DNA from: Pelagibacteraceae bacterium AG-390-L03
GTDB taxonomy: Bacteria > Pseudomonadota > Alphaproteobacteria > Pelagibacterales > Pelagibacteraceae
Length of the DNA stretch: 64,000 bases
Direction of reading: 5' to 3'
Assembly: GCA_003279685.1 (NCBI GenBank)
Contig: QCHA01000001.1
Span: forward strand, 248,001-312,000
In this document: piece after piece, positions 5,608 through 64,000 of the stretch
Layout of the letters: every line of letters starts with the position of its first letter
How positions within the stretch are numbered: the stretch's first letter is position 1
Notes under the pieces: model-generated
Databases searched by the model: none
The model's input: the letters and a program-made list of their open reading frames with translations, nothing else
What the model was told of the DNA's origin: nothing
Translations under genes and position numbers: made by a program

Positions 5608-6105
5608 ATGAGAACAATAGATAACATTAACGATCTTAACAAGTCTGATTTTTTATCAGTATTTGGTAATGTTTTTGAAAAAACTGAATCAGTAGCCTTG
5701 GAAGCTTTTAATTCCAAGCCATTTAAAAATTTCGAAGATGTTGTGTTTAAAATGCTGAATATTTACGAAAATTATGAAAAAAAAAAAATTTTAGAAATTT
5801 TAAATGCTCATCCTGAGCTTGCTGTGTCAAAAAAAATGACTACGGAGTCTATATTAGAACAAGCTTCTGCAAAATTAAACGAATGTTCTTATGAGGAATA
5901 TGAGGAATTTATAAGATTAAATTCAGAATATAAAAAAAAATTTAATTTTCCGTTTATAATTGCTGTAAAAGGAAAAAATAAAAATGAAATATTAAATAAT
6001 TTTAGACAAAGAATACAAAGTGATTTAGAAAGTGAATTCCTAGAAGCAAAAAAACAAGTAAAGAAAATTGCAACCTTTCGTCTTAAAGAAATAAATAAAA
6101 AATGA
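5608..6105 (+). CDS. uraD: OHCU decarboxylase
   Basis: Converts 2-oxo-4-hydroxy-4-carboxy-5-ureidoimidazoline to S-allantoin, the step after HiuH. The 165-residue protein has the family HPELA motif with the catalytic His, and the second conserved block KFNFPFIIAVKGKNKNEIL followed by a Gln/Arg helix. First gene of the plus-strand arm; its TGA overlaps the alc start in an ATGA, indicating translational coupling. Confidence 0.93.
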   Translation: MRTIDNINDLNKSDFLSVFGNVFEKTESVALEAFNSKPFKNFEDVVFKMLNIYENYEKKKILEILNAHPELAVSKKMTTESILEQASAKLNECSYEEYEEFIRLNSEYKKKFNFPFIIAVKGKNKNEILNNFRQRIQSDLESEFLEAKKQVKKIATFRLKEINKK

Positions 6106-7088
6106 AAAAATTTATAAGTGCAAAAATGATCAATCTAGCCGATCCTAGAGTCGGATCTAAAATTATATTTAAAACTGATGATTTTTTTGCAGCTGCTAAT
6201 AGAATTTTAAATACAGATACTCCAGTTTTTAAATATGGGCTATTTGATAAACATGGTAAATGGATGGATGGATGGGAAACTAGAAGAAGAAGATCAAAAG
6301 GCTTTGATTATCTAATTTTGAAACTAGGAAAACCTGGAAAGATCTTTGATATAGACATTGACACAACATACTTTAATGGAAATCAACCAACTCACGCATC
6401 TTTAGAAGGTTGCTTTAGTAAATCTAAACCTAGTAAAAAAACAAAATGGGTATCCTTATTAGGTAAAAAAAAGCTTGGACCAAACAAAAATCATATCTTT
6501 AAATCAAAAAACAAATCTGTTTTTAATTATATAAGACTGAATATCTTTCCTGATGGTGGAGTTGCAAGACTTAGACTTTATGGAGAAATTGAAATGGGAA
6601 AAAACATTTTTAATAATAAAAATGTAAATTTAACCTCTGTTTTAAATGGTGCTTCAATTATTGGTTGTAATAATGAGCATTTTGGAAAGGCTGAAAATAT
6701 AATAGCTCCTGGTAAGGGAAAAAATATGGGAGATGGCTGGGAAACAAGAAGAAGTAGAGGAAAAAACTTTGATTGGCTAATAATAAAATTTGGAAAACCA
6801 GGTTTGATAAAAAAATTAGAGATAGATACTCATCATTTTAAAGGAAATTACCCTGATGCTTGCTCTATTCAAACTGCAAATATTACAAAAAATCTATCAA
6901 ATAAATCAATTGTTAATAATTCAAAGAATTGGAAATTTATTTTAAATAAATCTAAGCTATGTGCACACAAAAAACATATATTTAAAAAATTTTTAATTAA
7001 AAGAAATAAGGAAAATTATCTTAAAATAAATATCCATCCAGATGGAGGAATTTCTAGAATAAGAGCATTTGGAAATTTTGTAAAATGA
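6102..7088 (+). CDS. alc: Allantoicase
   Basis: Hydrolyses allantoate to ureidoglycolate and urea. The 328-residue protein consists of two homologous halves, as usual for the family: the first has DGWETRRRRSKGFDYLILKLGKPG and the second DGWETRRSRGKNFDWLII, each followed by an IDT..F.GN.P block and an HIFK strand. Coupled to uraD and allA by ATGA overlaps on both sides. It releases urea; no urease is visible in the window. Confidence 0.93.
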   Translation: MKKFISAKMINLADPRVGSKIIFKTDDFFAAANRILNTDTPVFKYGLFDKHGKWMDGWETRRRRSKGFDYLILKLGKPGKIFDIDIDTTYFNGNQPTHASLEGCFSKSKPSKKTKWVSLLGKKKLGPNKNHIFKSKNKSVFNYIRLNIFPDGGVARLRLYGEIEMGKNIFNNKNVNLTSVLNGASIIGCNNEHFGKAENIIAPGKGKNMGDGWETRRSRGKNFDWLIIKFGKPGLIKKLEIDTHHFKGNYPDACSIQTANITKNLSNKSIVNNSKNWKFILNKSKLCAHKKHIFKKFLIKRNKENYLKINIHPDGGISRIRAFGNFVK

Positions 7089-7576
7089 AAGTAATAAAAG
7101 CAAAAAATATAACTAAAAAAAAATTTTCTAAGTTTGGACAATTAATAGACACATCCAAAAAAAATCCAATAAGTATTAATAATGGATATGCAAAAAGATT
7201 TGATGATTTAATAAATATAGATACTTCTAAAAAAAAAGGTAAAGCAATAATTAGTATTTTTAAAGCCAAAAAAAGGAGATTTCCAATGAAAATTGATATG
7301 ATGGAAAAACATCCTTTAGGAAGCCAAGCCTTTATACCAATGGAAGATACAAAATTTTTAGTATTTGTAGCTCCTAGAGGAGATAAACCAGATATAGACA
7401 AAATCCAATCCTTTTTAGTTCCTAAACAAACAGGAGTAAATTACAAGGCTGGTATTTGGCACTTTCCACTTATTTCTTTGAAAAACATGAATTATCTAAT
7501 TGTTGATAGAAAAGGAAAAGGAAACAATCTTGTTATTTATAAATTTAAAAAAGATAAAATTATTTTAAAAAAATGA
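7085..7576 (+). CDS. allA: Ureidoglycolate lyase
   Basis: Splits ureidoglycolate into glyoxylate and urea, the last step of the pathway. The 163-residue protein shows family features MEKHPLGSQAFIPMED in the middle and GVNYKAGIWHFPLISL towards the end, a cupin-like fold. Coupled to alc and puuE by ATGA overlaps. Its product glyoxylate would enter central carbon metabolism; the urea would be lost or used elsewhere. Confidence 0.88.
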   Translation: MKVIKAKNITKKKFSKFGQLIDTSKKNPISINNGYAKRFDDLINIDTSKKKGKAIISIFKAKKRRFPMKIDMMEKHPLGSQAFIPMEDTKFLVFVAPRGDKPDIDKIQSFLVPKQTGVNYKAGIWHFPLISLKNMNYLIVDRKGKGNNLVIYKFKKDKIILKK

Positions 7577-8472
7577 AAAAAAAATATCCAAGGGATTTAG
7601 TAGGATATGGTTCCAAAAAAATTAAGGTAAAGTGGCCTAGAAATGCCAAGTTGGCTTTACAATTTGTACTCAATTATGAAGAAGGAGCAGAGAATTGTAT
7701 TCTTCATGGTGATAAAACTTCAGAGGTATTTTTATCGGAAATTATAGGAGCAAAACCAATTAAAGGTCGACATTTAAATATGGAATCAATTTATGAATAT
7801 GGATCAAGAAGAGGATTTTGGAGAGTTCATGATTTATTTACCAAGAAAAAAATCCCACTAACTATTTTTGGAGTTGGAATGGCATTAGAAAGAAATAAAG
7901 ATGTTTGTTCGGCTATTAAAAAAGCTAATTATGAAGTTGCTAGTCACGGGTGGAGATGGATTGATTATCAAAATGTGCCAAAAAAAAAAGAAAAGAATGA
8001 TATGAAACTTGCTATAAAATCTATTAAAAAAAATTTTGGTACTCACCCTGCAGGCTGGTACACTGGTAGGTGCAGTTCGAATACATTAAATTTAGTGATA
8101 GATAATGGTAACTTTTTATACTGTAGCGATACATACAGTGATGATCTTCCATATTGGGTAAAAAAAGGTAATAAAAAACAGTTAATGATACCTTACACAC
8201 TCGATAACAATGATATGAGATTTGCTACTAACCAAGGATTTAATTCTGGTGAACAATTTTACAATTATTTAAAAGATAGTTTTGATGCTCTTTATGAAGA
8301 GGGAAAAACTTCACCAAAAATGATGTCTGTTGGTTTACATTGTAGATTAATTGGAAGACCTGGAAGAATACAGTCACTCAAAAAATTTTTAAATTATATT
8401 TCAAAATTTAATGATATTTGGATCTGTAAAAGAATAGACATAGCAAAACATTGGATTAAAAATTATAGTTAA
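7573..8472 (+). CDS. puuE: Allantoinase PuuE (polysaccharide-deacetylase fold)
   Basis: Predicted to open the allantoin ring to allantoate. The 299-residue protein is of the cofactor-light PuuE type rather than the amidohydrolase AllB type: it carries YGSRRGFWRVHDLF, ASHGWRWIDY (metal/active-site His) and HPAGWYTGRCS, and a late SVGLHCRLIGRPGR block. It is last in the uraD-alc-allA-puuE arm and ends eight bases before the convergent cytochrome gene. Although its reaction precedes Alc, gene order does not follow reaction order. Confidence 0.92.
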   Translation: MKKKYPRDLVGYGSKKIKVKWPRNAKLALQFVLNYEEGAENCILHGDKTSEVFLSEIIGAKPIKGRHLNMESIYEYGSRRGFWRVHDLFTKKKIPLTIFGVGMALERNKDVCSAIKKANYEVASHGWRWIDYQNVPKKKEKNDMKLAIKSIKKNFGTHPAGWYTGRCSSNTLNLVIDNGNFLYCSDTYSDDLPYWVKKGNKKQLMIPYTLDNNDMRFATNQGFNSGEQFYNYLKDSFDALYEEGKTSPKMMSVGLHCRLIGRPGRIQSLKKFLNYISKFNDIWICKRIDIAKHWIKNYS

Positions 8473-8480
8473 AATCTTTA

Positions 8481-8804
8481 TTATTGTTCAGCACTTAAAG
8501 AAACATAGTAGGCCACTGCCTCTATTTCTTCGTCGGATAATATACCTTCCATAGCAGGCATCACTCCTATACCATTTCTAACAGCCATTAAGATTCTCTG
8601 AATATCAGGTCTGATTTCGTTTAAATTTGGACCAATATTTACGTTTGAACCCGCATCTGAAAGAGTGTGACATGCAGCACAATTTCCAGCCTCAAGAAAA
8701 ACTTCTTTTCCTTTAATAAATATTTCATCAGCATTAACATGTATAATTGATGAAAATAATATTATGAAGAAAGCTTTTGAGGAATTTAAAAATAATTTTT
8801 TCAT
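8481..8804 (-). CDS. Periplasmic class I cytochrome c
   Basis: A 107-residue c-type cytochrome. I start at the ATG at 8804 (MKKLFLNSSKAFFII), which gives a normal signal peptide ending near VNA; the longer track ORF begins inside the divergent xdhC gene. The haem motif is CAACH (Cys42, Cys45, His46) and the Met ligand lies in GIGVMPAMEG near residues 82-85. It sits alone between puuE and xdhC. Since PuuD here lacks its usual cytochrome domain, this protein is the obvious candidate electron acceptor for urate oxidation; that link is inference. Confidence 0.85.
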   Translation of the reverse strand: MKKLFLNSSKAFFIILFSSIIHVNADEIFIKGKEVFLEAGNCAACHTLSDAGSNVNIGPNLNEIRPDIQRILMAVRNGIGVMPAMEGILSDEEIEAVAYYVSLSAEQ

Positions 8805-8854
8805 TGTAAATTTGGTATCATAATTAAAAAAAACTAAAAAGATAAATCTGTTGT

Positions 8855-9187
8855 ATGAAAAAACAATTGAAGAGAACAATTTTGGAACAGGCTAATGTCT
8901 GGATTGAATCTAACCAAAAAGTAGTACTTGCAAGAGTAATTCATACTTGGGGTTCCTCTCCTTGTCCCACAGGGAGTAGTATGATTATTAATGAAAAAGG
9001 AGACTTTTTTGGATCAGTTTCAGGTGGTTGTGTAGAGTCAAATGTAATAGCTGAATGTTTAGAATTAATAAAAAATAATAATTTATTTAAGCAAATAAAA
9101 TTTAATGTTTCTGATGAGAATGCATGGGATGTAGGTCTGGCCTGTGGAGGTGAAATAAAAATTTTTATTGAACAAATTAATTCATGA
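8855..9187 (+). CDS. xdhC: XdhC/CoxI family protein, N-terminal-domain ORF
   Basis: A 110-residue protein that is just the XdhC_CoxI domain: VVLARVIHTWGSSPCPTGS, then GSVSGGCVESNV and a closing LACGGEIKIFIE. XdhC binds molybdenum cofactor and assists its sulfuration and insertion into XdhB. The usual second Rossmann domain is on the next ORF, joined by an ATGA overlap at 9184-9187. Divergent from the cytochrome c gene with a 50-base gap that must hold both promoters. Confidence 0.85.
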   Translation: MKKQLKRTILEQANVWIESNQKVVLARVIHTWGSSPCPTGSSMIINEKGDFFGSVSGGCVESNVIAECLELIKNNNLFKQIKFNVSDENAWDVGLACGGEIKIFIEQINS

Positions 9188-9864
9188 AAATACAAATACT
9201 CAAAGAGATAATTCAAAAAAAATCTTCTAAAGAAAAATTTGCTGTATTAACAAATTTGATTAATGGTAATAGTGAAATATTTGAATTTGGAAAATTCTTA
9301 AGTAAAGATTTTGAAAGTTCTAAAAAAGAAATAGAAAATTATCATTATCTTAAAAAAAATGGCGTTATTGATGGAACTCAAATATTTATTCAGAACTACA
9401 TAAAGCCAATTGAGGTTATTATTGTAGGAGCTGTTCATATTTCTCAATATTTGGTTGATTTATTTAAAAATCTTGATTTCGAAGTTAAAATTATTGATCC
9501 AAGAAAATATTTTATCACTACAGAAAGATTTCCAAATATAGAAATTATAAATGGGTGGCCAGAGAAAATTTTAAAGAAATTACAAACAAACTCTAATAAT
9601 GCATTAATCACACTCACCCATGATCCAAAAATAGATGATCCAGCATTAAGGTATGCATTGAAAAATAAGTTTTTTTATATTGGTGCTCTTGGAAGTAAAA
9701 AAACGCACATTAAAAGATGTGAAAGATTAAAAGAGGCTGGATTTAGTGAGGAAGAAATTGACTCAATACATGGACCCATAGGTATTAAACTTGGAGGAAA
9801 ATCTGCTCCTGAAATTGCTTTATCAATTGTTGCACAGCTTGTCTCAGAAACTCACAAATTATAA
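9184..9864 (+). CDS. XdhC/CoxI family protein, Rossmann-domain ORF
   Basis: A 226-residue partner of the preceding gene. The C-terminal two thirds is the XdhC Rossmann domain: VIIVGAVHISQYLVDLF, then FKNLDFEVKIIDPRKYF and the late block FYIGALGSKKTHIKR with GPIGIKLGGKSAPEIALSI. The N-terminal about 70 residues look like a weak second copy of an XdhC-like strand region. Coupled by ATGA to the upstream ORF, so both are made together; expected role is maturation of xanthine dehydrogenase. There is no sign of a frameshift, since each ORF has its own start and stop. Confidence 0.82.
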   Translation: MKIQILKEIIQKKSSKEKFAVLTNLINGNSEIFEFGKFLSKDFESSKKEIENYHYLKKNGVIDGTQIFIQNYIKPIEVIIVGAVHISQYLVDLFKNLDFEVKIIDPRKYFITTERFPNIEIINGWPEKILKKLQTNSNNALITLTHDPKIDDPALRYALKNKFFYIGALGSKKTHIKRCERLKEAGFSEEEIDSIHGPIGIKLGGKSAPEIALSIVAQLVSETHKL

Positions 9865-17758: not shown

Positions 17759-18472
17759 ATGAGTTATTTAATTTTAGTAAGACATGGTCAAAGTGTATGG
17801 AATCTTGAAAAAAAATTCACAGGCTGGGTTGATGTAGACTTGACTACAAATGGTAAATCAGAGGCCATAAAAGCCGGTGAACTGATAAAAACAAAAAATA
17901 TAAATATTGATATTTATTATTCATCTTTTCAATTAAGAGCAAAAAATACCTTAAAATTAATAAAACAAGAGTTAAAGGATATGAAAGTTTCAAAAGAAGC
18001 TTGGCAACTGAATGAACGACATTATGGAGCTCTTACAGGCTTAAATAAAGATGAAATGAAAATAAAACTTGGTGAAGAAAAAGTTCATCAATTTAGACGA
18101 TCATGGGATTTGCGACCTGACCCGTTGGATAGAGAAAACCCTTATCACCCTATCAATATTGATACTTACAAAGAAATACCAAATAATAAAATTCCTGATA
18201 CAGAGTCTCTTAAAGATACTTATGAAAGAGTATTAGAGTTTTATAAACAAGAAATCGAAAATAAAATTTCAAATAACAATATTTTAATATCTGCACATGG
18301 AAATTCGATAAGAGCATTATGTAAATATTTATTTAAATTAGATGAAAATCAAATATCTAAATTGGAAATACCAACTGGAAATCCACTTGTAATAAAATTA
18401 GATGAAGAGAATAAAATTACTGATTGCAAATACTTAGATAAAGAAAGAGCTAAAGATCTTGTAGTTTTTTAA
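17759..18472 (+). CDS. gpmA: 2,3-bisphosphoglycerate-dependent phosphoglycerate mutase
   Basis: Interconverts 3- and 2-phosphoglycerate. The 237-residue protein has the phosphohistidine motif LVRHGQSVWN (His9), ERHYGALTGLNK with the dPGM-specific Glu, and the second His in SAHGNSIRAL. Single gene on the plus strand; its last 23 bases overlap the convergent nucleotidyltransferase gene, the largest convergent overlap here. Confidence 0.95.
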   Translation: MSYLILVRHGQSVWNLEKKFTGWVDVDLTTNGKSEAIKAGELIKTKNINIDIYYSSFQLRAKNTLKLIKQELKDMKVSKEAWQLNERHYGALTGLNKDEMKIKLGEEKVHQFRRSWDLRPDPLDRENPYHPINIDTYKEIPNNKIPDTESLKDTYERVLEFYKQEIENKISNNNILISAHGNSIRALCKYLFKLDENQISKLEIPTGNPLVIKLDEENKITDCKYLDKERAKDLVVF

Positions 18473-19139
18473 AAGTTTCAAGATCAGTTAAATGATAAAA
18501 ATCATTATCAGTCTCAAATCCATACAGTTCTTTTTTTTCAATTAAATCGTTCCATACATTTGTTATTGAAAAAATTTTATCTTTATAATTTGAAAGAAGT
18601 TTTTTATTAATAATTTGGCAACCTGTATAAATAAATTTAGTCTCATTATTTTTTATAATTAAATTTTCTTTAAGATCAAAATCACCATTTAAATTTTTGT
18701 CAAAACTTAATTCCTTTTTTACCAATAATAGAATATTTTTAAGTTTTTTGGAAAAATACATATTTTCCATTTTAATAATTTCATTAAAATAATTTTTCTT
18801 CCATATTGTATCAGGGTTAAAAATTAAAACATTATCTTCACTTGTATATTTCATCATATTGTTTATTCCACCACCTGTATCAAGAATTTTTTCACCATCT
18901 TCAATAATTGAAATTTTAGATTTAAATTTTTTATTATTTATAAAATCATGAATTTGATTTTTTAAATAAAAGGTATTAATAATAATTTGATGTATACCCA
19001 AACTTTCAATTAGATTAATACAAGTTTCAAGCACTGCAATATTGTTTAATTTGATCAAAGGTTTAGGGGTATCTAGTGTCAGCGGATTTAATCTTTTTCC
19101 AAATCCTGCACATAAAATAAAGGCTGTGTTAATTCTCAT
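18450..19139 (-). CDS. murU: Sugar nucleotidyltransferase, MurU-like
   Basis: 229-residue NTP-transferase: the N-terminal signature AFILCAGFGKRLNPLTLDTPKPL binds the nucleotide and metal, and VLIFNPDTIW supplies a metal-binding Asp. Following an AmgK-like kinase by one base, it most likely acts as MurU, making UDP-MurNAc from MurNAc-1-phosphate in peptidoglycan recycling. Other sugar-1-phosphate uridylyl- or guanylyltransferases cannot be excluded from sequence alone. Confidence 0.75.
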   Translation of the reverse strand: MRINTAFILCAGFGKRLNPLTLDTPKPLIKLNNIAVLETCINLIESLGIHQIIINTFYLKNQIHDFINNKKFKSKISIIEDGEKILDTGGGINNMMKYTSEDNVLIFNPDTIWKKNYFNEIIKMENMYFSKKLKNILLLVKKELSFDKNLNGDFDLKENLIIKNNETKFIYTGCQIINKKLLSNYKDKIFSITNVWNDLIEKKELYGFETDNDFYHLTDLETFKKLQDL

Positions 19140-19140
19140 T

Positions 19141-20091
19141 TTACTTAGTTATAGATTTAGGAAAATTAGTTGCTAATAACAACTTCAAATTAATTAAGTC
19201 ATTATTTTTACTCATCCTGCTATCAATCATATTCCATGAATATGGAATAAGTTTTAAATATTTTCTTTTATTATCTCTTTCTGCCAATCTCATAAATATT
19301 CCAATAATTTTTAAATTTCTAAGAACTGATAAAATATCGAAATCATTTTTAAATTTATTTACATCAATTTTTTTATTAGTGCTTAAATAGTAGTTGTACA
19401 CTTTATCTTTTAATGAATTGGGTGTTTTGTATCTGACATCATCAATTAGGGACGCTAAATCATAGGCTTTGTTTCCAATAAGAGCATCTTGATTATCAAT
19501 TAATCCAATTTGATTTTTGGAGTTTATGATTAAATTTGAAACATGAAAATCTCTATGAACAAAAGTATCATTTTTAAAATTTAGTTTTGATAATACCAAC
19601 TTAATTTCTTTATCAAATTTACTATTAAATGTATTGATTTTTTTTTTATTTAATTTTTTCGGAACATACCATTGACTAAATAACTTTGCTTCATCTAATA
19701 AGATCTTACTTTTGTAATCTTTAATCAGGTAAGATTTATTTCTGAAATTTTTGATTTTTTTATCTTTAATTAATTGAATTTTATTTAAAACATTAATTAC
19801 TTTTTTGAAAATTAAAAATTGATCTTTTTTATTTCTTGAAAATATTTGATAAATAGTTTTTTTTCCCAAATCCTGTATTTCAATATAATTCTCTCTATAA
19901 TTTTGACTTAATAATTTAGGTGCAATTATATTATTTTTAATTAAGATTTTATTAATTGAATCATAAATTAATAAATTTTTAAATTTTTCTCTATTTGCAA
20001 ATACTATAATCGAATTTTTTTTAGTATTTCTATAAAATTTTCTAAAAGAAGCATCTCCTTTAATTTCCTTAAAATCTTTTAAAAGTTTCAT
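19141..20091 (-). CDS. amgK: Aminoglycoside-phosphotransferase-fold kinase, AmgK-like
   Basis: 316-residue APH/choline-kinase fold: FVHRDFHVSNLIINSKNQIGLIDNQDAL holds the catalytic Asp (HRDFH) and the metal-binding D of the IDNQD motif. In proteobacteria this kinase next to tsaE and a MurU-like transferase is the anomeric MurNAc/GlcNAc kinase AmgK. The gene lies between tsaE (nine bases) and murU (one base). The N-terminal lobe begins GDASFRKFYR, typical of these kinases. Confidence 0.78.
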   Translation of the reverse strand: MKLLKDFKEIKGDASFRKFYRNTKKNSIIVFANREKFKNLLIYDSINKILIKNNIIAPKLLSQNYRENYIEIQDLGKKTIYQIFSRNKKDQFLIFKKVINVLNKIQLIKDKKIKNFRNKSYLIKDYKSKILLDEAKLFSQWYVPKKLNKKKINTFNSKFDKEIKLVLSKLNFKNDTFVHRDFHVSNLIINSKNQIGLIDNQDALIGNKAYDLASLIDDVRYKTPNSLKDKVYNYYLSTNKKIDVNKFKNDFDILSVLRNLKIIGIFMRLAERDNKRKYLKLIPYSWNMIDSRMSKNNDLINLKLLLATNFPKSITK

Positions 20092-54704: not shown

Positions 54705-56660
54705 TTAATTGAAGTTTATTGGATCAACATCAACTGAAAGTTTTATTCCTGATGAAAATTTGTAATTTGGAATAATCTCAGCAATTGAATTCTGTAATTT
54801 GAGAGATTTTGAGCCCCTGATTAACATTCTTATTCTAAATTTTCTTTTTAATCTAAAAATTGGTGCACTAACTGGTCCCAACACTATTCCCTCAATTTTG
54901 TTTTCAATAAAGTTTTTAAAATGAAAAGCTTCTTTTTCTAATTTTGCTTCATTATTACCTGTTAATATTAATGAGATAAATCTTTGAAATGGTGGAAGCT
55001 TGTTTAGTCTTCTAATATCTAATTCTCTATCAAGAAAAATATCAGGATTACTATTTGTTAAATCAGAAATCATTTTAGTATTAGTATTATAAGTTTGAAA
55101 ATACACAGTTGCAGGTTTCCCTGTTCTTCCTGCTCGTCCAGAAAGTTGATGATACAACTGTAAATTTTTTTCAGCTCCTCTTAAATCATGTCCTTGTAAA
55201 GAAAGATCAATATCAACTACCACAATACAGTTAAGGCTTGGAAAATGAAAACCTTTTGAAATTAGCTGAGTTCCAACTAAAATTTGAACTTCATTATTGA
55301 TTATTTTTTCTAATTTATCACTAGAACTTTTTTTATTCATAGTATCACTTGAAAAAATTTCAATTTTTTTAGATGGAAAGTTTTTTTTAACTTCCTCAGA
55401 TATTCTTTCGACACCAGGACCACTAAAAATAAATTCACAGTCCCCATATTTTGCACAAATTCTTTTTAAAGAGGATTTAAAACCACAATAATGGCATAAT
55501 AAATTATTTTTTTTTTTATGATAAACTAAATTAATTGAACAATTAGGACATGAATAACTATTGAAGCATTTGTTACAAATTACATGTGGAGAAAACCCTC
55601 GTCTATTTAAAAAAAATAATACTTGATTATTTTTATCAAGATGAAAATTTACTTTCTCAATTATTTTTTTTGAGAGCCAAGATTGTTTTTCTAATTTTGT
55701 TTCATTAAGATTAATTATTTCATAATTCGGCAATGATGCGTTTTGGTAACGTTTTTCCAATTTAGAAATACTATATTTTTTTTTTCTAATATTTTCATAA
55801 GTTTCAATTGAGGGAACAGCAGTTATTAAATTGATAGGGATATTTTCAAATGACGCTCTTGAAATAGCCATGTCTCTTGCATTATAAGTAACACCTTCAT
55901 CTTGCTTGTAAGATTGATCATGCTCTTCATCAACAATAATTAAACCTAGATTTTTAAATGGTAAAAATAATGATGATCTGGCACCTATAACAACTTTAAT
56001 TTCTCCATTTGCAATTCCGCTCCAAATAATTTCCTTCTTTTTTTTTGTAATACCAGAATGCCAAACTCCTGGCGTAAAGCCAAAAAATTCTATAAATTTT
56101 TTTTGAAATTGACTAGTTAAGCCAATCTCTGGTAATAAAATTAATCCCTGGAAACCCTTATTTATTATATTTTTAAGAGCTTCAAAATACACCATAGTTT
56201 TTCCTGAGCCAGTTGTACCTTGAAGAACATGAACTCTAAATTTTTGATTACTAGCATTCATTTTTTTAAGGGATTTTTTTTGTTCTTCAGAGAGCTTTAT
56301 TGAATTTTTTTTTATATTGGTTTCAAAAATTTTGTAAGTATCTTTTTGAAATTTTTCAACCGCATTACTACTTAATAAAACCAGTTTTAAAGCCATTCCT
56401 TTTGGAATTATATTGTATTGTGAAAACCAGTTGAGAAATTTAATGGTTGTTTTTTTTAATGGTGTAACGTCTAATTTTTTTAAAACATTCTTAATCTTAA
56501 AATTTTTATTATTTTTTTTTTCAAACTCATCCCAAACTACTCCAGTAATTTTAGATTTACCAAAAGGCACCACCACATAGTCGCCTACTTTTAAACTAAT
56601 ATCACTATCATAAGTAAAAGGATGATTAAATATATTTGGTAAAAGAATCGGTACTTTCAT
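54705..56660 (-). CDS. priA: Primosomal replication protein N' (PriA helicase)
   Basis: 651 residues, restarting stalled forks. A 3'-DNA-binding domain, helicase motifs (LQGTTGSGKTMVYFEAL, VDEEHDQSYKQDEG, SGRAGRTGKP) and the zinc insert with eight Cys: CNKC, CPNC, CHYC and a last pair CAKYGDC. The last pair is normally CxxC; here it is C-x5-C. Somewhat shorter than the about 730 residues of E. coli PriA, mainly at the N-terminus. Confidence 0.94.
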   Translation of the reverse strand: MKVPILLPNIFNHPFTYDSDISLKVGDYVVVPFGKSKITGVVWDEFEKKNNKNFKIKNVLKKLDVTPLKKTTIKFLNWFSQYNIIPKGMALKLVLLSSNAVEKFQKDTYKIFETNIKKNSIKLSEEQKKSLKKMNASNQKFRVHVLQGTTGSGKTMVYFEALKNIINKGFQGLILLPEIGLTSQFQKKFIEFFGFTPGVWHSGITKKKKEIIWSGIANGEIKVVIGARSSLFLPFKNLGLIIVDEEHDQSYKQDEGVTYNARDMAISRASFENIPINLITAVPSIETYENIRKKKYSISKLEKRYQNASLPNYEIINLNETKLEKQSWLSKKIIEKVNFHLDKNNQVLFFLNRRGFSPHVICNKCFNSYSCPNCSINLVYHKKKNNLLCHYCGFKSSLKRICAKYGDCEFIFSGPGVERISEEVKKNFPSKKIEIFSSDTMNKKSSSDKLEKIINNEVQILVGTQLISKGFHFPSLNCIVVVDIDLSLQGHDLRGAEKNLQLYHQLSGRAGRTGKPATVYFQTYNTNTKMISDLTNSNPDIFLDRELDIRRLNKLPPFQRFISLILTGNNEAKLEKEAFHFKNFIENKIEGIVLGPVSAPIFRLKRKFRIRMLIRGSKSLKLQNSIAEIIPNYKFSSGIKLSVDVDPINFN

Positions 56661-56710
56661 ATCTTAATAATATGGAAAAATATTAGGTATGGAATGGTTA
56701 TTTTATAACT

Positions 56711-56739
56711 ATTTTAGATCTGATAACCATATTGGGCAA
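56711..56739 (-). promoter_or_regulatory. Predicted priA promoter with an inverted repeat
   Basis: Minus strand TTGCCC, 17 bases, TAAAAT, about 45 bases before the priA ATG. CTGATA (56720-56725) and TATCAG (56743-56748) form an inverted repeat across the -35 region, a possible operator. The whole 169-base gap (56661-56829) otherwise shows nothing recognisable. Confidence 0.45.
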
Positions 56740-56829
56740 GAATATCAGAATCCAAGGCATCTATGTTATTTGAATTAATTAAAATAAAGTAAATTAAATG
56801 AAAAAATTATATTTATAGATATTAATATT

Positions 56830-57528
56830 TTAATTCATATGTTTTTTAAGAAAATGAGAAATATCATTAAGTTGTCTCTTTTTTCCATGATTAACTTCTA
56901 CAAATTTATTATTCACATTTTCAAAATTAGTATCAAAATTATTTTTAAAAATATATTTTCTAAAACTTTGTAAATGAATACTTATAAACTCAGTAACAAC
57001 TAATTGAATTGAAATTTTTTTATCTCTTATCCTCTGAATTTTTCTTGATAGTGACATATATACTTTCTCAATAATTAATATTTTATAAATTGGATCTTTA
57101 ATAAATTTAATGTCATTGTTAACATATAATCCTTCAAAAATAATCAACCTATTTTTTGAATATTTAAATTTTAGATTAAGATTATTTTTTCCAGTTTTTC
57201 TATTATAAAGATTTTTTAATATTAAAATTTTATTATTAGATTTTCCTAATAAAAAGTTTAACAACTTCTTTAGTTTGAAACTATCATAATGTAAAATATT
57301 TTGATTAATCTTAAATTTATTAATCCTTTTTGTAATACTTATTCTTTTTGATCTTGAAAAAAGAAACAAATCTTTACTTAAAATATAAATATTTGAATAA
57401 TCCTTCTGTAAATTTTTTTTTAATAAACTTGCAAAAAGACTTTTTCCAGAGCATGTAATTCCATCAATAGTAATTAAATTAATATTTTTTTTTTTAAAAT
57501 CTCTGAAAATTTTTTTATTTAATTTCAT
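56830..57528 (-). CDS. P-loop kinase, uridine-kinase/PRK-like
   Basis: 232 residues. Walker A GITCSGKS near residue 27, HYDSFKLKKLLNFLLGKSN corresponding to the substrate block of uridine kinases, IIFEGLYVN as Walker-B-like strand, and RKIQRIRDK resembling the R-R-RD lid. A phosphotransferase of that superfamily on a small hydroxyl substrate is likely; the substrate is unknown. Last gene of the minus-strand island arm, strongly Lys/Asn/Ile-rich. Confidence 0.6.
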   Translation of the reverse strand: MKLNKKIFRDFKKKNINLITIDGITCSGKSLFASLLKKNLQKDYSNIYILSKDLFLFSRSKRISITKRINKFKINQNILHYDSFKLKKLLNFLLGKSNNKILILKNLYNRKTGKNNLNLKFKYSKNRLIIFEGLYVNNDIKFIKDPIYKILIIEKVYMSLSRKIQRIRDKKISIQLVVTEFISIHLQSFRKYIFKNNFDTNFENVNNKFVEVNHGKKRQLNDISHFLKKHMN

Positions 57529-57537
57529 AATCTTTGT

Positions 57538-58128
57538 TTAAAAATATTTTAACCAAATTTTAGGTTGTTTTGTACAAATAGCATCAATTTTGATATCATT
57601 TTTTCTTAGCTTTGAGATGATGTTTTTAATCTCTTTAATTCTATCTTTTTTAACTAATTCTGGAGAAACAATACAAATTTTTACTTTTTGTTTTTTTAAG
57701 AAGAAATAAAATTTTTTATTTAGACTAATTTTTGTAAAATTATCTACCCATAGCCATTTAATTTTATTGAATAGTGTATTTTTTTTTTTTAAATCTTCAT
57801 ACTCAGAATATCTAACTGATACTTTGGTATGATTCATATTCTTTAAAATAGTGGAAAAAGTCTGATCATGAAAAAAATAATTCTTTATTTTATTTTTGTT
57901 TAAAATTTTTAAAATTTGATCTTCTAAACCTTCTTCTTTAACATTTAAAACAAGTAATTTATGATTATAATATTTAATCCACTTAGAAAATAATTCACCT
58001 TTTACATAAGGATCATGGTGAAGATATATATTTTTATTCTTTGATCTTAAATCAATTTCAACTCCATATTCATTATCAAGTATTTTTAATTCTTTTGAAG
58101 AATTGACCCTATGTTTGATTAAAATCAT
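57538..58128 (-). CDS. Glycerophosphodiester-phosphodiesterase-like protein
   Basis: 196 residues with a compact GDPD-like pattern: IKHRVNSSKEL at the start, YGVEIDLRSKN and IYLHHDPYVKGE, which supply the two His and the Glu/Asp of the catalytic site. The remaining TIM-barrel strands (LLVLNVKEEG, YFFHDQTF, WLWVDNF) are recognisable, though the protein is shorter than usual. No signal peptide. Might cleave or make a glycerophospho linkage in the glycan made by this island; function not established. Confidence 0.6.
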   Translation of the reverse strand: MILIKHRVNSSKELKILDNEYGVEIDLRSKNKNIYLHHDPYVKGELFSKWIKYYNHKLLVLNVKEEGLEDQILKILNKNKIKNYFFHDQTFSTILKNMNHTKVSVRYSEYEDLKKKNTLFNKIKWLWVDNFTKISLNKKFYFFLKKQKVKICIVSPELVKKDRIKEIKNIISKLRKNDIKIDAICTKQPKIWLKYF

Positions 58129-58920
58129 TTAGATATAACTTAAATATTTTGTATGTATAAAAAAAATATTAAATACTTTTTGATTATTAAACTTTTCAAG
58201 CTTTTTTTCAAATTTATTATAAATGTACATATTATATTTTTGTTTTTTTAATATATGGTCAATTTTTTCACAAATTTTTTTATCATACTCAACCATTAGT
58301 ATTGGATTAAATTTTTTTATTGTTCTTATTGCGCCCTTAATACATTCTAGTTCATGACCTTCAATATCAATTTTAATAAAGCAAGGCTTATATTTAAAAT
58401 CATCTAATTTTTTTGTTCTAATAATTTCTTTTTTTAAAGAAATAATTTTAAATATTTTTTTTATAAATAATGAACTTTTGAGCCTTTTTTTAACACCAGA
58501 CTTACTTATGCCAGCCATCTGGGTAATTGCATATTTTTTAAAGTAGGGTGTATAGAAATGTTTTTTTTGATTGAAATTACTTAAAGCTACATTTTTACAT
58601 TTTAAAAATTTATCTTTTTGTTCAATTTTTTTTAGTTTATTAAAATTATAAATATTAGGCTCAAAAGAAATAATTTTTGTTTTTTTGGTAAATTTTCTAA
58701 TAATATTATAGCTCATACCATCATTAGCTCCCACATCTAAAATTATTTTTTTTTGATTAAAGAAATTTTTTTTTTCTAAAATTTTGATAATTTTAAAATC
58801 ACTATCATAAATAAACTTTGAAAAATATTTCCCGATTATGAATCTAGAGATTAAAAAAAGATAAATATTAGAGCGTAAAACTCTTTCAAGATAATTTAAA
58901 ACAATGTTATCTTGGGTCAT
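58129..58920 (-). CDS. FkbM family methyltransferase
   Basis: 263 residues. SAM site IILDVGANDGMSYNII, ISFEPNIYNF, and the family block CFIKIDIEGHELECIKGA. These enzymes O-methylate sugars and other metabolites and are frequent in surface-polysaccharide loci. One codon after its minus-strand neighbour and three bases from the glycosyltransferase. Confidence 0.85.
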   Translation of the reverse strand: MTQDNIVLNYLERVLRSNIYLFLISRFIIGKYFSKFIYDSDFKIIKILEKKNFFNQKKIILDVGANDGMSYNIIRKFTKKTKIISFEPNIYNFNKLKKIEQKDKFLKCKNVALSNFNQKKHFYTPYFKKYAITQMAGISKSGVKKRLKSSLFIKKIFKIISLKKEIIRTKKLDDFKYKPCFIKIDIEGHELECIKGAIRTIKKFNPILMVEYDKKICEKIDHILKKQKYNMYIYNKFEKKLEKFNNQKVFNIFFIHTKYLSYI

Positions 58921-58923
58921 TTT

Positions 58924-59637
58924 CTATTTAAAAAATCTTAATTTAAATAAATATAAAAAATTAAACAAAATATGACTTATAAAATTTATAAAATTATTTT
59001 TCCATTTGGAGTGTCCATATTTTCGTGTATTAAAGATGACTTCAATAGTTTTAATTTCTATTCTATTTTTTAAGCAAATATACATAATGTAGGTATCTAT
59101 TGTTGTCCATTTATATGGAATATTTGAAAATAATTGTAACAATTCTTTATTAAATATCTTTGGCTGAGCATTAATCTCTTTCATTGGATAACCTAAAATA
59201 ATTGAAGAAAGTTTTTCATGAAGAGTACTAATAATACCGTCAAATCCTCTGTTGTTTACTCTAAATCCCTTTCCTAATATATTTTTTTTATCTTTAATAA
59301 GTAAATAAAGTTTAAAAAAATCAATCATAGGCGTTTGTAAATCTGCATGTGCCCAACCAATATAATCTCCTTTGGCAATCTTTAGTCCCTCGGCGATTCC
59401 TCCTCCATAACCTTGATTATTCTCAAGATTAATTAATTTAATCAAAACATTTTTAGAATTATTTTTTTTTATAGCTTTTTCAGCTACACTTTTAGTATCA
59501 TCATCTGAGCCGTTGTTAACTAATATCAATTCAGCACTATATTCTTGTAATGGTAATTCTAAAAATTCATCACAAATTAATGGAATGTTTTTTTCTTCGT
59601 TATAACATGGTAGAACTAAACTAATGTTAATAGACAT
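58924..59637 (-). CDS. Family 2 glycosyltransferase
   Basis: 237 residues of the GT-A fold: ISLVLPCYNEEKNI, ELILVNNGSDDDT, GYGGGIAEGLKIAKGDYIGWAHADLQTP with the DxD-like motif. Resembles dolichol-phosphate-mannose-synthase-like enzymes that load lipid carriers. No C-terminal membrane segments of the GtrB type are clear. First gene of the minus-strand island arm. Confidence 0.88.
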   Translation of the reverse strand: MSINISLVLPCYNEEKNIPLICDEFLELPLQEYSAELILVNNGSDDDTKSVAEKAIKKNNSKNVLIKLINLENNQGYGGGIAEGLKIAKGDYIGWAHADLQTPMIDFFKLYLLIKDKKNILGKGFRVNNRGFDGIISTLHEKLSSIILGYPMKEINAQPKIFNKELLQLFSNIPYKWTTIDTYIMYICLKNRIEIKTIEVIFNTRKYGHSKWKNNFINFISHILFNFLYLFKLRFFK

Positions 59638-59684
59638 GACTTTTAAATATTATAAATACTCTATATATAGAACTTAAACTATAT

Positions 59685-61178
59685 ATGAAACATTTTTTAA
59701 TTATACCTTTAGGTGGTCTTGGAATTAGATTTGTAAACTCAGGTTACAAAACCTATAAACCATTTCTAAAAACATCAACCAAATCAAGAGTTATTGATAA
59801 TATAGCTAATAATTTTCCTAAAAAAAATACTCATATAATTATTATAGGAAATACCAAAAGATATAGAAATATTGTTTTTAATTTCAAAAGGAAAAATACC
59901 TCTTTTATAAAAATCAGAGATCATAAATCTGGACCATTGTACTCTCTTTTTTTAGCAAAAAAAAAATTAAAAGAAATTATTAATAATGACAAATTTTTTA
60001 TTTCATATTCAGATATCAACTGGAAGTGGGATTTTAATTCTGTAGAAAAAAATCTCTCCAAAAAAAATATAGTTGTATATAGTCATATTGGCTTCCACCC
60101 CCATCTAGAAATAAATTCAAAATCAGATTTTTTTTTATGTAATAAAAAAGATGAAGTAGATTATGTATCTGAAAAAAAATCAATCCTTGCAGACTATAAA
60201 AAAAACTATCTTGCGATTGGATGTTATTATTTTAAAAACTTTCAATATTTTGAAAATTTTTTCAATGAAAATGAATTCAAAAAACAAATTAATAAAAAAG
60301 AAATATATATAATTAATTTATTAAATTACTGCTTAAAAAATAAAATTAAAATAAATCATTTTACTATAAATCGATTTGTTCATTTAGGGATACCTAATCA
60401 ATATGAAGATTTCTTAAATTGGAAAGATATTTTAATTAAAAACTTTAAAAAAAGTATAAGTTTAAGTTATCCAAGTATTATGTTGATGGCTGGAAAAGGT
60501 GAAAGAGTTAAAAATTTAAAAGAAAAAAAACCTTTTTTAAATATTAGAGATTATAAAATATACGAGTATATTTTTAAAAAATATGGTTCAAAAAAAAACC
60601 ATATAATTACTAATGATAATTATTTAAAATCTATAAATAAAAAATACAAGATTTTTAAGATTAATAATTCAAAATCAATGCTTCAAACAGTTGAAAAATC
60701 GATTGATTTGTTAAAAAATAAAAAAAATTTTTTTATACTATCTTGTGATTGTTTTGGGTTGTTTGAAAAAATAAAATTTGAAAAATTCATTGAAAAAGAA
60801 AAACCAGATGTAGTTCTTTTTGGTTTTAATATTTCAGAATTACAGAAATCACTTTTTAACGCACATTCTTCAATTAAATTAAAACATAACAATATAGACT
60901 CTATAAAAATTAAGAAATCTCTAGATAAATCAAATGAATTAGGTCATGCAGGGTTTTTTTGGGTAAAAAATAGCAATATATTTAATAATTTAAAAAAGTT
61001 TAGGTTAACCAATAAATTAAAAAGAGAAATTTTACTTGATGATTATTTTAAATTTCTATTTGATAAAAAGTTAGGCAAAATTAATTGTTATAAATTGAAG
61101 AGTTATGTGCATATAGGGTCAATTAATGAATATGAAGAATTGAAATATTGGGAAAACTATTTGAAAAATGAAAATTGA
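59685..61178 (+). CDS. Tandem two-domain nucleotidyltransferase-like protein
   Basis: 497 residues made of two homologous halves. Half one (1 to about 258) opens IIPLGGLGIRFVNSGYKTYKPFL, has the metal Asp in ISYSDINWKWD, and closes VHLGIPNQYEDFLNWKDIL. Half two (from about 261) opens IMLMAGKGERVKNLKEKKPFL, has ILSCDCFGLF, and closes VHIGSINEYEELKYWENYL. Each matches a sugar-phosphate nucleotidyltransferase. Its end overlaps the GatZ-like gene by 11 bases. The substrate and whether both halves are active are unknown. Confidence 0.75.
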   Translation: MKHFLIIPLGGLGIRFVNSGYKTYKPFLKTSTKSRVIDNIANNFPKKNTHIIIIGNTKRYRNIVFNFKRKNTSFIKIRDHKSGPLYSLFLAKKKLKEIINNDKFFISYSDINWKWDFNSVEKNLSKKNIVVYSHIGFHPHLEINSKSDFFLCNKKDEVDYVSEKKSILADYKKNYLAIGCYYFKNFQYFENFFNENEFKKQINKKEIYIINLLNYCLKNKIKINHFTINRFVHLGIPNQYEDFLNWKDILIKNFKKSISLSYPSIMLMAGKGERVKNLKEKKPFLNIRDYKIYEYIFKKYGSKKNHIITNDNYLKSINKKYKIFKINNSKSMLQTVEKSIDLLKNKKNFFILSCDCFGLFEKIKFEKFIEKEKPDVVLFGFNISELQKSLFNAHSSIKLKHNNIDSIKIKKSLDKSNELGHAGFFWVKNSNIFNNLKKFRLTNKLKREILLDDYFKFLFDKKLGKINCYKLKSYVHIGSINEYEELKYWENYLKNEN

Positions 61179-62388
61179 TAAAATTATAAAAAAGAAAGCA
61201 TTACCATCATTCTGTACCTCAAATATTGAAGTTATAAAATCAATTCTATTTTTTTGTCATAATAAAAAATTACCTTGCTTAATTGAATGCACTTCGAATC
61301 AAGTTAACCAACATGGTGGTTATACCAATAAAACACCAAAAAAATTTATAAAAGAAATTTTTAATTTAAGTAAAAAGATTAAATTTAACTCAAAAAAATT
61401 ATTTTTAGGGGGAGATCATTTGGGTCCACTACCATGGAAAAAAAAGAACAAAACTATCGCTATCAAAAATTCAATTTCATTAATAAATGATTATTTAAAA
61501 CAAAATTTTTGTAAGATTCATGTCGACACTTCAATAAAATGTAGAGATGACAAGTATATTGATAGTGACATCATCTTTGAGAGAACTAGTGATATTTTAA
61601 ATAATCCTAGTATCAAAAAAAAAATAAAAGATAAATTCTTAATAGTAGGAACAGAAGTCCCTCTATCTGGAAGTGGTGATGATAAAAAAATTGTTAAAAC
61701 TAACAAGAAACAAATTGAAACGGAAGTTTTCAAATTTAAACAAATATTAGATAAATTAAGTCTAAAAAATAAATCTTTTGGTTTAGTAATTGAACCTGGA
61801 ATGAAATATATGCACTTCTCTATTACAAAACCTAACTTTTCAGACTTTTCGAATAAAAAAAATATAAGTAAAAAAAATAAATTTGTTTATGAGGCTCACT
61901 CTACGGATTATCAGCCAGAAAAAATTTTAAAACAATTAGTAAAAAATAATTTTAAATTTTTAAAAGTTGGCCCAGAATTAACTTATAATTATTCGAAGTC
62001 ATTATTCTTTATGGAAAATGTAGAAAAAAAAAATAAGCTTAAAAGTTCAAAAATAAAAAAAGTTATTTTTTCTTCGATGTTGAAAAATCCAAAATATTGG
62101 AAAAGCTACTATGAAACAAAAAATCCTAAATTACTTTTAAATAGTAAATTAGATAGAATGAGATATTATTTTGATACTAAACCCGTAATTAATTCAATCA
62201 AAAATTTAAAAAAAAATATTAATCTACTTCATGAAAAAAATATAGTTTACTTAATGAATACTTCTGAAAAAAAAGAATTTTTAAATTTTAAAAAAGATAA
62301 GTTATCAAATTTCGATGTAATTAAACTAATCTTTATTTCAAAAACATTAAAAAGATACTTTGGTGCTTGTAAACACAAATTAAATTAA
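61168..62388 (+). CDS. GatZ/KbaZ-type tagatose-bisphosphate aldolase subunit homologue
   Basis: 406 residues, close in length to GatZ and KbaZ. Strong landmarks: ECTSNQVNQHGGYTNKTP, LFLGGDHLGPLPW, CKIHVDTSIKCRDD, IVGTEVPLSG, VYEAHSTDYQPEKI, LKVGPELTYN and RMRYYFD. In E. coli these proteins assist the catalytic class II aldolase GatY/KbaY, which is absent here. Conservation of the metal-site-like His and Asp suggests its own activity. Coupled to the nucleotidyltransferase, not to galactitol genes. Confidence 0.85.
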   Translation: MKIDKIIKKKALPSFCTSNIEVIKSILFFCHNKKLPCLIECTSNQVNQHGGYTNKTPKKFIKEIFNLSKKIKFNSKKLFLGGDHLGPLPWKKKNKTIAIKNSISLINDYLKQNFCKIHVDTSIKCRDDKYIDSDIIFERTSDILNNPSIKKKIKDKFLIVGTEVPLSGSGDDKKIVKTNKKQIETEVFKFKQILDKLSLKNKSFGLVIEPGMKYMHFSITKPNFSDFSNKKNISKKNKFVYEAHSTDYQPEKILKQLVKNNFKFLKVGPELTYNYSKSLFFMENVEKKNKLKSSKIKKVIFSSMLKNPKYWKSYYETKNPKLLLNSKLDRMRYYFDTKPVINSIKNLKKNINLLHEKNIVYLMNTSEKKEFLNFKKDKLSNFDVIKLIFISKTLKRYFGACKHKLN

Positions 62389-63395
62389 ATATTTTTTATA
62401 TTTCGTAAATTAAACGATAGAATTATCAGTGGTAAAATTATTAATTTTTCTGACATTTGATATACTGGAGTTGCAAACAAAAAAACAATTGAATAAATAA
62501 TTGCCATTATTATTAGCATTTTATTTTTAGCTTCACTTTTAAAAACATTGTAAAAAATTAATCCAATAGGAAGAATAAAATTAATCGTGACTATTAATAT
62601 ACTTGAAAATATATTTATAGAACCTAGTTCACTTAAAATTATTTGGCCTTCTTGTTTTTGAAGAGGAACAAAAAATTTTGGGTTAATCATGCAATTTATT
62701 GACTCATAATTAATAATTACAAATATAGTAAGTATAATAGCACTTAATATTATAATTTTTTTAAATTCTAAATTAAAAATTAACCAAGTTAAAATTATAA
62801 TAAATCCACTTTCCCGATTAAGTGTTGCCATCAAAATTATCAAAAAAAATAAAATAATATTTCTTTTTTTACTTGCATATATTGCTGCACTCATAAAAAA
62901 CATCTCAAATATAGAATAAGAATATTCTCCGAGATGAAATTGAAAAATAAAGGTTACGTAAAAAAGAAAAAAAATAATATGAATTTTTTCTAATTGAAAA
63001 ACATTATTCAAAAAAACAAGAGATAAAAATATTAAAGAACAATGTAATATAATATTAATATAATATGGAAAATTAGAATTCAATTCTTCAGACAACTGAT
63101 AGATATTTTTTAAAAATAACGATTTAACCCATCTTACTTTATGTCTATCATGCATATCACCTGTTATATTGCATTTTTTTGATAGAATTTCTTCATATGA
63201 TAAATCTGAAGTTAGTTGTTGATTAATATTTTTTTTGATTTCGGCTCTTGTTAATTTTATAAATGTTTTGTCATTTGTAATCTCATTGATTGCAAAACGT
63301 TCATGTGTAAAATTTATGAAAACATAAAAAATCAAAAAAAATGATATAAAAAATAATAAATTTTTTTCATTAAGACTTTTTGATATAAAATTCAT
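62385..63395 (-). CDS. Polytopic membrane protein, possible GT-C-like transferase or polymerase
   Basis: 336 residues with about eight to nine membrane segments. An extracytoplasmic stretch near residues 40-110 follows the first segment (CNITGDMHDRHKVRW), and a loop motif LNRESGF resembles the 'RE' motif seen in GT-C and EpsG-type proteins. I do not recognise a family with confidence. Its stop shares TTAA with the GatZ-like gene. Closes the island on the right. Confidence 0.5.
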   Translation of the reverse strand: MNFISKSLNEKNLLFFISFFLIFYVFINFTHERFAINEITNDKTFIKLTRAEIKKNINQQLTSDLSYEEILSKKCNITGDMHDRHKVRWVKSLFLKNIYQLSEELNSNFPYYINIILHCSLIFLSLVFLNNVFQLEKIHIIFFLFYVTFIFQFHLGEYSYSIFEMFFMSAAIYASKKRNIILFFLIILMATLNRESGFIIILTWLIFNLEFKKIIILSAIILTIFVIINYESINCMINPKFFVPLQKQEGQIILSELGSINIFSSILIVTINFILPIGLIFYNVFKSEAKNKMLIIMAIIYSIVFLFATPVYQMSEKLIILPLIILSFNLRNIKNI

Positions 63396-63446
63396 ATTTT
63401 AATTTAATATAAAGATAATTTAAAAATATTATAGGATAATGTGGGA

Positions 63447-64000
63447 TTAAGAGTGTATTGCTCTTTTATCTACTGATAATGCTGCTTCTTTAACAGCTTC
63501 TGAAAATGTTGGATGAGCGTGACAGGTTCTAGCAATATCTTCAGAGCTTGCACCAAATTCCATTGCTACACCTATTTCTGCAATAAGTTCTCCCGCATGA
63601 GGGCCTATTATGTGAGCACCTAAAACTTTATCAGTAGTTTCATCCGCTAAAATTTTAACAAACCCTTCTGCATCATCTATGGCTTTTGCTCTAGAGTTTG
63701 CCATGAATGAAAACTTACCAATTTTATATTTTGTGTTTAATTCTTTTAATTGTTCTTCTGTCTTACCAATTGATGCTACTTCAGGGGTAGTATAAACTAC
63801 ACCAGGTATTGTATCGTAATTCACATGGCCTGATTGACCCGCAATATTTTCTGCAACTGCAATTCCTTCATCTTCTGCTTTATGGGCAAGCATTGGTCCA
63901 CTTATAACATCGCCTATTGCATAAATATTATTAATATTAGTTTTAAACGTATTGTCTGTTTTAACTCTTTGTCTTTCATCTAATTCAACACCAGCAGCTT
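63447..64000 (-). CDS. lpdA: Dihydrolipoyl dehydrogenase, C-terminal part
   Basis: The reading frame continues through the right window edge; the track ORF starts only at an internal Met. Visible are [16 protein letters not shown], the second FAD block [13 protein letters not shown], and the dimer domain with the catalytic His-Glu pair near [16 protein letters not shown]3 subunit of the 2-oxoacid dehydrogenase complexes. The N-terminal FAD and disulfide regions are outside. Confidence 0.95.

Follow-up and report, generated by a model that had tools for sequence, protein, structure and literature searches.

A mobile six-gene cassette of SAR11 bacteria with a GatZ-like protein and a double nucleotidyltransferase: a candidate locus for an unusual surface-glycan precursor

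A 64,000-nucleotide stretch of the genome of Pelagibacteraceae bacterium AG-390-L03 (contig QCHA01000001.1, positions 248,001 to 312,000; hereafter the window) carries seven open reading frames (ORFs) between the housekeeping genes priA and lpdA. The genome (G000; G and L numbers denote the genomes and loci compared here) is 1.35 Mb long and 93% complete. Six of the seven genes recur as a block in other genomes of SAR11, a group of abundant ocean bacteria, and this block is very probably a surface-glycan precursor cassette. The features are, in window coordinates:

54705-56660, minus strand: priA, flanking housekeeping gene (PriA domains)
56830-57528, minus strand: core gene 1, P-loop kinase of the phosphoribulokinase (PRK)/uridine-kinase family (PF00485 above cut-off; conserved motifs)
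57538-58128, minus strand: core gene 2, small, cytosolic-looking GDPD-like TIM barrel of 196 amino acids (aa) (AlphaFold2 and Foldseek)
58129-58920, minus strand: core gene 3, FkbM-type methyltransferase (PF05050, 65.6 bits; TIGR01444)
58924-59637, minus strand: core gene 4, GT2 glycosyltransferase, DPM-synthase-like (PF00535, 75.7 bits)
59685-61178, plus strand: core gene 5, double nucleotidyltransferase, domains at about residues 1-250 and 262-497 (AlphaFold2 and Foldseek)
61168-62388, plus strand: core gene 6, GatZ/KbaZ-like protein, predicted ketose-phosphate C4-epimerase (PF08013, 286 bits)
62385-63395, minus strand: polytopic membrane protein, optional, in five of six cassettes (weak NCBIfam match)
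63447-63998, minus strand: 3′ end of lpdA, flanking housekeeping gene (Pyr_redox_dim)
56675-63445, no strand: the insert as delimited by flank comparison with the empty site of G813 (L112)

All seven ORFs lie where a sequence-only reading of the window had placed them. That reading had also remarked on their unusual composition, which is borne out by a GC content of 20.4% for positions 56661-63446 against 27.8% for the whole window. The GatZ-like gene overlaps the double nucleotidyltransferase gene by 11 bp. There is no tRNA gene within the 64-kb window, and a tRNA-linked insertion was therefore dropped as an explanation; no integrase-like gene was seen among the seven ORFs of the insert.

The kinase belongs to the PRK/uridine-kinase family by its PF00485 score (24.7 bits; gathering cut-off 22) but scores far too low for the uridine kinase equivalog (29.7 bits; cut-off 180). 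Across orthologues it keeps the P-loop GK, E132-G133 and R166-D169. The GDPD-like protein has no match to the Pfam GDPD profile at E≤1. Its AlphaFold2 model (predicted local distance difference test score, pLDDT, 85.1) nevertheless has GDPD crystal structures, including 1o1z, 7e0v, 4oec and 1zcc, as all seven of its best matches in the PDB (Foldseek), and the catalytic residues H6, E24, D26 and H38 are invariant across six relatives. The GT2 protein resembles the dolichol-phosphate-mannose-synthase-type structure 5mlz (E 6e-21), contains an HADLQ motif and lacks a C-terminal membrane domain. The membrane protein weakly matches an NCBIfam cell-surface glycopolymer family (E 0.0014); its homologues occur in L015 and L087-L089, and also in L016, there with a different cassette.

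The double nucleotidyltransferase scores only 14.4 bits against PF00483, below the cut-off. Its AlphaFold2 model (pLDDT 78.6) shows the nucleotidyltransferase fold twice, with 4evw as the best Foldseek match and KdsB, IPCT and HddC among the others. Each of the six orthologues has GxGxR, a Lys and one Asp in both domains, as expected of sugar nucleotidyltransferases. The motif is missing from the first domain in a related cassette described below (L017), a loss also known from regulatory partners; one domain may therefore be regulatory in some cassettes. A search of viral contigs for the nucleotidyltransferase found none, and a phage search for GatZ returned three records only, all enterobacterial.

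The six core genes occur together. PF08013 proteins above the cut-off were found in six of 397 genomes of the family (the window's genome, G089, G318, G297, G215 and G197), and every one of the six carries the whole block in identical order and orientation, with kinase, GDPD, FkbM and GT2 genes on one strand and nucleotidyltransferase and GatZ genes on the opposite strand. Weak PF08013 matches (18-35 bits, a separate clade) were left out of this count. Within a set of 197 family genomes, PF08013 appears in two, and it is these two that hold close, full-length homologues of the double nucleotidyltransferase as well as the only kinase orthologues (380 and 362 bits; all others ≤32); the GDPD-like profile is present in 15. 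A scan of genome contigs with GatZ independently recovered G089 (AH-287-C13) and AG-447-L03. Variation among the cassettes is slight: G089 has an extra membrane-protein gene (DUF6044) between kinase and GDPD, and the GDPD reading frame of G215 is shorter (145 aa). The optional membrane protein gene adjoins GatZ in the five cassettes that have it, and only six of the seven genes first grouped together thus make up the conserved cassette.

One copy lies amid genes that read from sequence as GDP-fucose-synthase-, sugar-kinase-, GmhA-like and NTase-HAD heptose-type genes (L086 of G318 and L039 of AG-447-L03 are the same contig stretch and count once), surroundings that we take as a surface-glycan region from their gene content. 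This setting and the recurrent linkage to a glycosyltransferase uphold the surface-glycan role originally proposed. The co-occurrence of the cassette genes, including that of GatZ with the double nucleotidyltransferase, had been named as one point on which that proposal would stand or fall, and it held in six of six genomes. A chance neighbourhood was rejected on this linkage and on the joint inheritance of the block.

The cassette occupies three sites: the priA-lpdA junction of the window, the interval from nadA to a ygfZ-like gene, and the glycan region of G318. The nadA site is used in four genomes, of a genus other than the window's. Identity to the window across the concatenated core is 49.7% in G318, a member of the same genus, and 66.6-67.5% in G297 and G215, whereas NadA is 95.4% identical in G318, 75-77% in G297, G215 and G197, and 73% in G089. 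The pair of window and G215, from different genera, thus shares 67.5% of the core and 77% of NadA. In the cassette tree the window groups with G297 and G215 (support 100/100). This strong conflict with a housekeeping gene indicates that the block moved between genera. Comparison of the priA-lpdA interval across SAR11 relatives, which the sequence-only reading had proposed, revealed an empty site in G813 (LpdA 99.4% and AtpA 99.2% identical to those of the window; lpdA-priA gap about 22 bp) and other inserts elsewhere. The junction as a whole is variable (L112-L125), and several relatives have little or nothing between the two genes. Others hold a 1531-aa ORF (L113), a cupin-like gene (L116) or a TPR protein (L125), and L117 and L118 bear two glycan-type inserts of DegT-, epimerase- and GT4-like genes in opposite orientations.

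GatZ and KbaZ were originally named as non-catalytic aldolase subunits, and the cassette protein had been labelled aldolase-like. It is a genuine PF08013 protein (286 bits over residues 7-402, its full length), although it falls short of the NCBIfam equivalog TIGR02810 (252.7 bits; cut-off 568.8), and the scores of the six SAR11 proteins (275-294 bits) lie below those of the other full-length members sampled from Proteobacteria (419-678). The E. coli GatZ and KbaZ proteins catalyse C4-epimerisation between fructose-6-phosphate and tagatose-6-phosphate and lacked aldolase activity as tested; His88, His257 and Glu171 are their predicted metal ligands, and Cys20, Glu44 and Lys279 are family signatures (PMC11907403). 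In our alignment Cys20, Glu44, His88, Glu171, His257 and Lys279 correspond to C16, E40, H84, E163, H244 and K266, which are invariant in the six SAR11 GatZ proteins and in 30 other proteobacterial ones, assumed to be catabolic. The class II partner GatY (PF01116) was found in none of the six cassette genomes, while the same search matched 11 of 14 control genomes; because the six are 71-93% complete, this absence is strong only when summed over all of them. Service to a resident GatY was accordingly rejected. The missing partner and the six retained residues make the protein better read as a C4-epimerase than as an aldolase subunit, and 'epimerase-like' is the better label. The protein is therefore unlikely to serve as a chaperone for GatY and more likely to be an enzyme in its own right; quite probably it acts on a ketose phosphate unaided by GatY, as an epimerase (or in aldol formation).

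Another, distant family of GatZ-like proteins, about 390 aa long and scoring 18-35 bits against PF08013, forms its own clade, keeps the H/E/H metal ligands and loses the Lys. It sits in glycan loci of SAR11 and other Proteobacteria (L090:3874-8312, L091:2306-7423, L092:5304-7812, L093:3018-6996 and L094:2568-7049), beside KdsC-like HAD, GT2-like and cupin genes and a ∼526-aa nucleotidyltransferase with an APH-kinase-like C-terminus.

Other cassettes of this kind, in SAR11 as well as elsewhere in the Proteobacteria, retain nucleotidyltransferase(s), GT2 and GDPD, and the sugar enzyme varies. In G024 (L019), GT2 and nucleotidyltransferases accompany a fusion of class II FBA and RPE, and the GDPD of this genome lies on a separate contig adjoining nadA (L043). 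G135 (L016) combines two dehydrogenases, RPE, a xylose-isomerase-like barrel and two separate tandem nucleotidyltransferases; its GDPD and GT2 are on another contig end (L042) that also adjoins nadA, which suggests the same insertion site as in G089. G058 (L017) pairs an FGGY-type kinase with a double nucleotidyltransferase and a HAD protein, with transketolase-like halves adjoining. G087, G101, G141 and G169 (L020, L021, L040 and L041) encode an AraD-type aldolase, a GtrA-RPE fusion and a single nucleotidyltransferase, and five further SAR11-family genomes have a short GDPD and a HAD-nucleotidyltransferase fusion. Relatives of the double nucleotidyltransferase were found in five more genomes among 369 across the phylum. 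That of G410 (L132) lies with GT2, GDPD and a 1293-aa protein (5775-9656), an apparent kinase-aldolase-epimerase fusion: its N-terminal P-loop kinase-like domain is weakly similar to the window kinase, and its other apparent domains are of class II aldolase and RPE type. In G471, G398 and G406 (L133, L134 and L136), an AraD/RhaD-type aldolase is accompanied by a HAD protein, GT2 and/or GDPD, a nucleotidyltransferase of the double or a related type, and a large protein that ends in a PRK-type kinase (L133:1808-3889, L134:3202-5313, L136:10788-12917) and in L134 has a weak GT87-like N-terminus. The best profile of the L134 HAD protein is ribulose-1,5-bisphosphate 5-phosphatase (171 bits; cut-off 330). 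In G453 (L135) the nucleotidyltransferase occurs without these neighbours.

Two side observations concern these relatives. The L020-type locus (L020:4406-10673; also L021, L040 and L041) is a seven-gene SAR11 cluster made up of AraD-type aldolase, GtrA-like-RPE, nucleotidyltransferase-like-histidine-phosphatase fusion, 2H phosphoesterase, NTase, GT2 and GDPD, for which we know of no described pathway. The end of contig 12 of G000 (L137:8465-9214) holds a second HAD-nucleotidyltransferase-type gene, 72% identical to L018 and cut by the contig end.

By their family assignments, the proteins in the exchangeable slot are mostly enzymes predicted to alter ketose phosphates at C3/C4 or in their carbon chain. 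The class II aldolases FbaA, AraD, FucA and RhaD can also epimerise suitable sugar phosphates at C4 (PMC5434028). What fills the slot is our main reason to trace the nucleotidyltransferase product back to a ketose phosphate. We tentatively propose a modular cassette class in several proteobacterial families, in which a fixed nucleotidyltransferase (usually tandem), a DPM-like GT2 and a GDPD-like protein, often with a PRK-type kinase, would be combined with one of several ketose-phosphate-editing enzymes (GatZ, FBA-RPE, AraD/RhaD, RPE or transketolase), each yielding a different nucleotide-activated ketose or alditol phosphate.

On balance, the window insert is probably a mobile cassette for a surface glycan, with enzymes to make an unusual ketose-derived, C4-edited unit, to activate it and to transfer it. 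We infer every substrate, the order of steps, the nucleotide, the product and the roles of the kinase and GDPD-like enzyme, as follows. The GatZ-like protein would invert a ketose phosphate at C4 through metal-dependent retro-aldol/aldol chemistry, most simply converting D-fructose-6-phosphate to D-tagatose-6-phosphate; that this pair is the actual substrate is a conjecture from homology to which we give somewhat less than even weight. The PRK-type kinase would phosphorylate the GatZ product or a companion sugar or polyol, and the double nucleotidyltransferase would couple the phosphate(s) to a nucleoside triphosphate (NTP), giving a nucleoside-diphosphate (NDP)-linked ketose or derivative. 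The phosphate that receives the nucleotide may itself be a ketose (or alditol) phosphate and not an aldose-1-phosphate, although we hold this loosely. The DPM-like GT2 would then transfer the unit onto the surface glycan, FkbM would O-methylate it, and the cytosolic GDPD-like enzyme would hydrolyse a phosphodiester intermediate or by-product. The original suggestion of an unusual sugar phosphate, built and activated for GT2 by kinase, aldolase-like protein and nucleotidyltransferase, agrees with all of the findings and gains from the swapped cassettes; what changes is the GatZ step, now probably a C4-epimerisation.

Several observations weigh against this interpretation, beside the incompleteness of the genomes searched for GatY. 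The six SAR11 GatZ proteins form a single clade (support 100/100) whose branch is long, at 2.97 changes per column, and differ at 39 of the 91 columns invariant among the 30 sampled GatZ, so their substrate may differ and has quite possibly shifted. The nucleotidyltransferase is a remote branch, apart from the PF01128 fructose-6-phosphate cytidylyltransferases (PMC10918830). The cassette has no oxidoreductase for making an alditol, and a route from fructose-6-phosphate through tagatose-6-phosphate to NDP-6-tagatose needs no kinase.

In an alternative route, the kinase makes a 1,6- or 1,5-bisphosphate and GatZ aldol chemistry builds a new carbon chain, beyond C4 inversion. Membership of the kinase in the phosphoribulokinase family fits such a ketose bisphosphate, as do the pairing of PRK-type kinases with AraD/RhaD-type aldolases in L133, L134 and L136 and the best profile of the L134 HAD protein. 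Yet GatZ and KbaZ are epimerase-active and lacked aldolase activity as tested (PMC11907403), and the window cassette has no HAD protein, which leaves this route unlikely. Slightly less probable still are two precursors, one for each nucleotidyltransferase domain, namely a GatZ-made ketose phosphate and an alcohol released by the GDPD and rephosphorylated by the kinase. The GlpQ-LicA-LicC choline decoration of Haemophilus is an analogue for such release and rephosphorylation. Motif retention by both domains in six of six copies, the separate tandem nucleotidyltransferases of L016 and a cytosolic-looking GDPD with its catalytic residues kept all speak for this division of labour. Against it, SAR11 cassettes with a single nucleotidyltransferase and no PRK kinase (L020, L021, L040 and L041) keep the GDPD, the first domain of L017 has lost its motif, and the cassette lacks a LicD-type transferase.

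Tailoring with a phosphonate or other non-sugar headgroup, with the nucleotidyltransferase as a PntC-like cytidylyltransferase, is very improbable. Phosphonate production does occur among marine bacterioplankton (PMC8931226), and nucleotidyltransferases do activate phosphonates (PMC6697681); no phosphoenolpyruvate mutase or phosphonate enzyme was seen in the cassettes read, however, and the GatZ, RPE and AraD slots indicate ketose phosphates. PF08013 is known from galactitol, N-acetylgalactosamine and tagatose breakdown, so a decayed or imported catabolic GatZ might lie by chance beside glycan genes. Linkage in six of six genomes at three sites refutes this, and the intact active site, the fully supported clade and the lack of any catabolic partner found leave it next to no probability.

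The C4-edited ketose cassette, if real, would to our knowledge give PF08013 its first biosynthetic rather than catabolic role. It bears on GatZ/KbaZ function where the aldolase partner is absent, and the six-gene block is a defined target that can be expressed whole. A fixed activation and transfer core with a swapped ketose-phosphate enzyme would also provide a rule with which unusual surface sugars could be predicted from other genomes. Elsewhere in the window (18450-20091), a nucleotidyltransferase (229 aa) and a kinase (316 aa) form a candidate MurU/AmgK-like pair of peptidoglycan recycling.

Each protein family is known by itself. In the literature searched, which left out most subscription journals, no account of this gene set, of its linkage or of the modular swaps was found; within that scope the earlier remark of knowing no described pathway with this set stands. 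The cassette GatZ shares with E. coli GatZ and KbaZ (PMC11907403) the fold family, the H/E/H metal ligands and the Cys/Glu/Lys signature. It differs in its lower scores, its own long-branch clade and its biosynthetic glycan neighbourhood, with neither GatY/KbaY found nor catabolic genes alongside. With the GDPDs 1o1z, 7e0v and 1zcc, core gene 2 has in common the TIM barrel and the catalytic His/Glu/Asp pattern, but it is short, escapes Pfam detection and is tied to GT2 and the nucleotidyltransferase. Formation of cytidine diphosphate (CDP)-6-D-fructose from fructose-6-phosphate and cytidine triphosphate is a precedent for joining an NTP to a ketose-6-phosphate, by an enzyme of another family, PF01128 (PMC10918830). 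The pathways of CDP-6-D-fructose/CDP-6-D-glucitol in C. jejuni HS:5 and of CDP-mannitol in S. pneumoniae (Mnp1/2) likewise use a nucleotidyltransferase on a ketose-6-phosphate for a surface polymer (PMC10918830), a substrate that is predicted here. In contrast to them, our cassette has a double, non-PF01128 nucleotidyltransferase, a C4-epimerase-type enzyme, a kinase and a GDPD, and by Pfam neither a PF01128 nucleotidyltransferase nor a PF01370 reductase is among the window cassette proteins, so that it does not qualify as a CDP-6-glucitol or CDP-mannitol pathway. Finally, the cassette resembles the hypervariable, flexible surface-glycan islands of SAR11 in its low GC and in content that varies among relatives, and one copy lies inside such an island; unlike them, it is self-contained and also inserts at the housekeeping junctions priA-lpdA and nadA-ygfZ.

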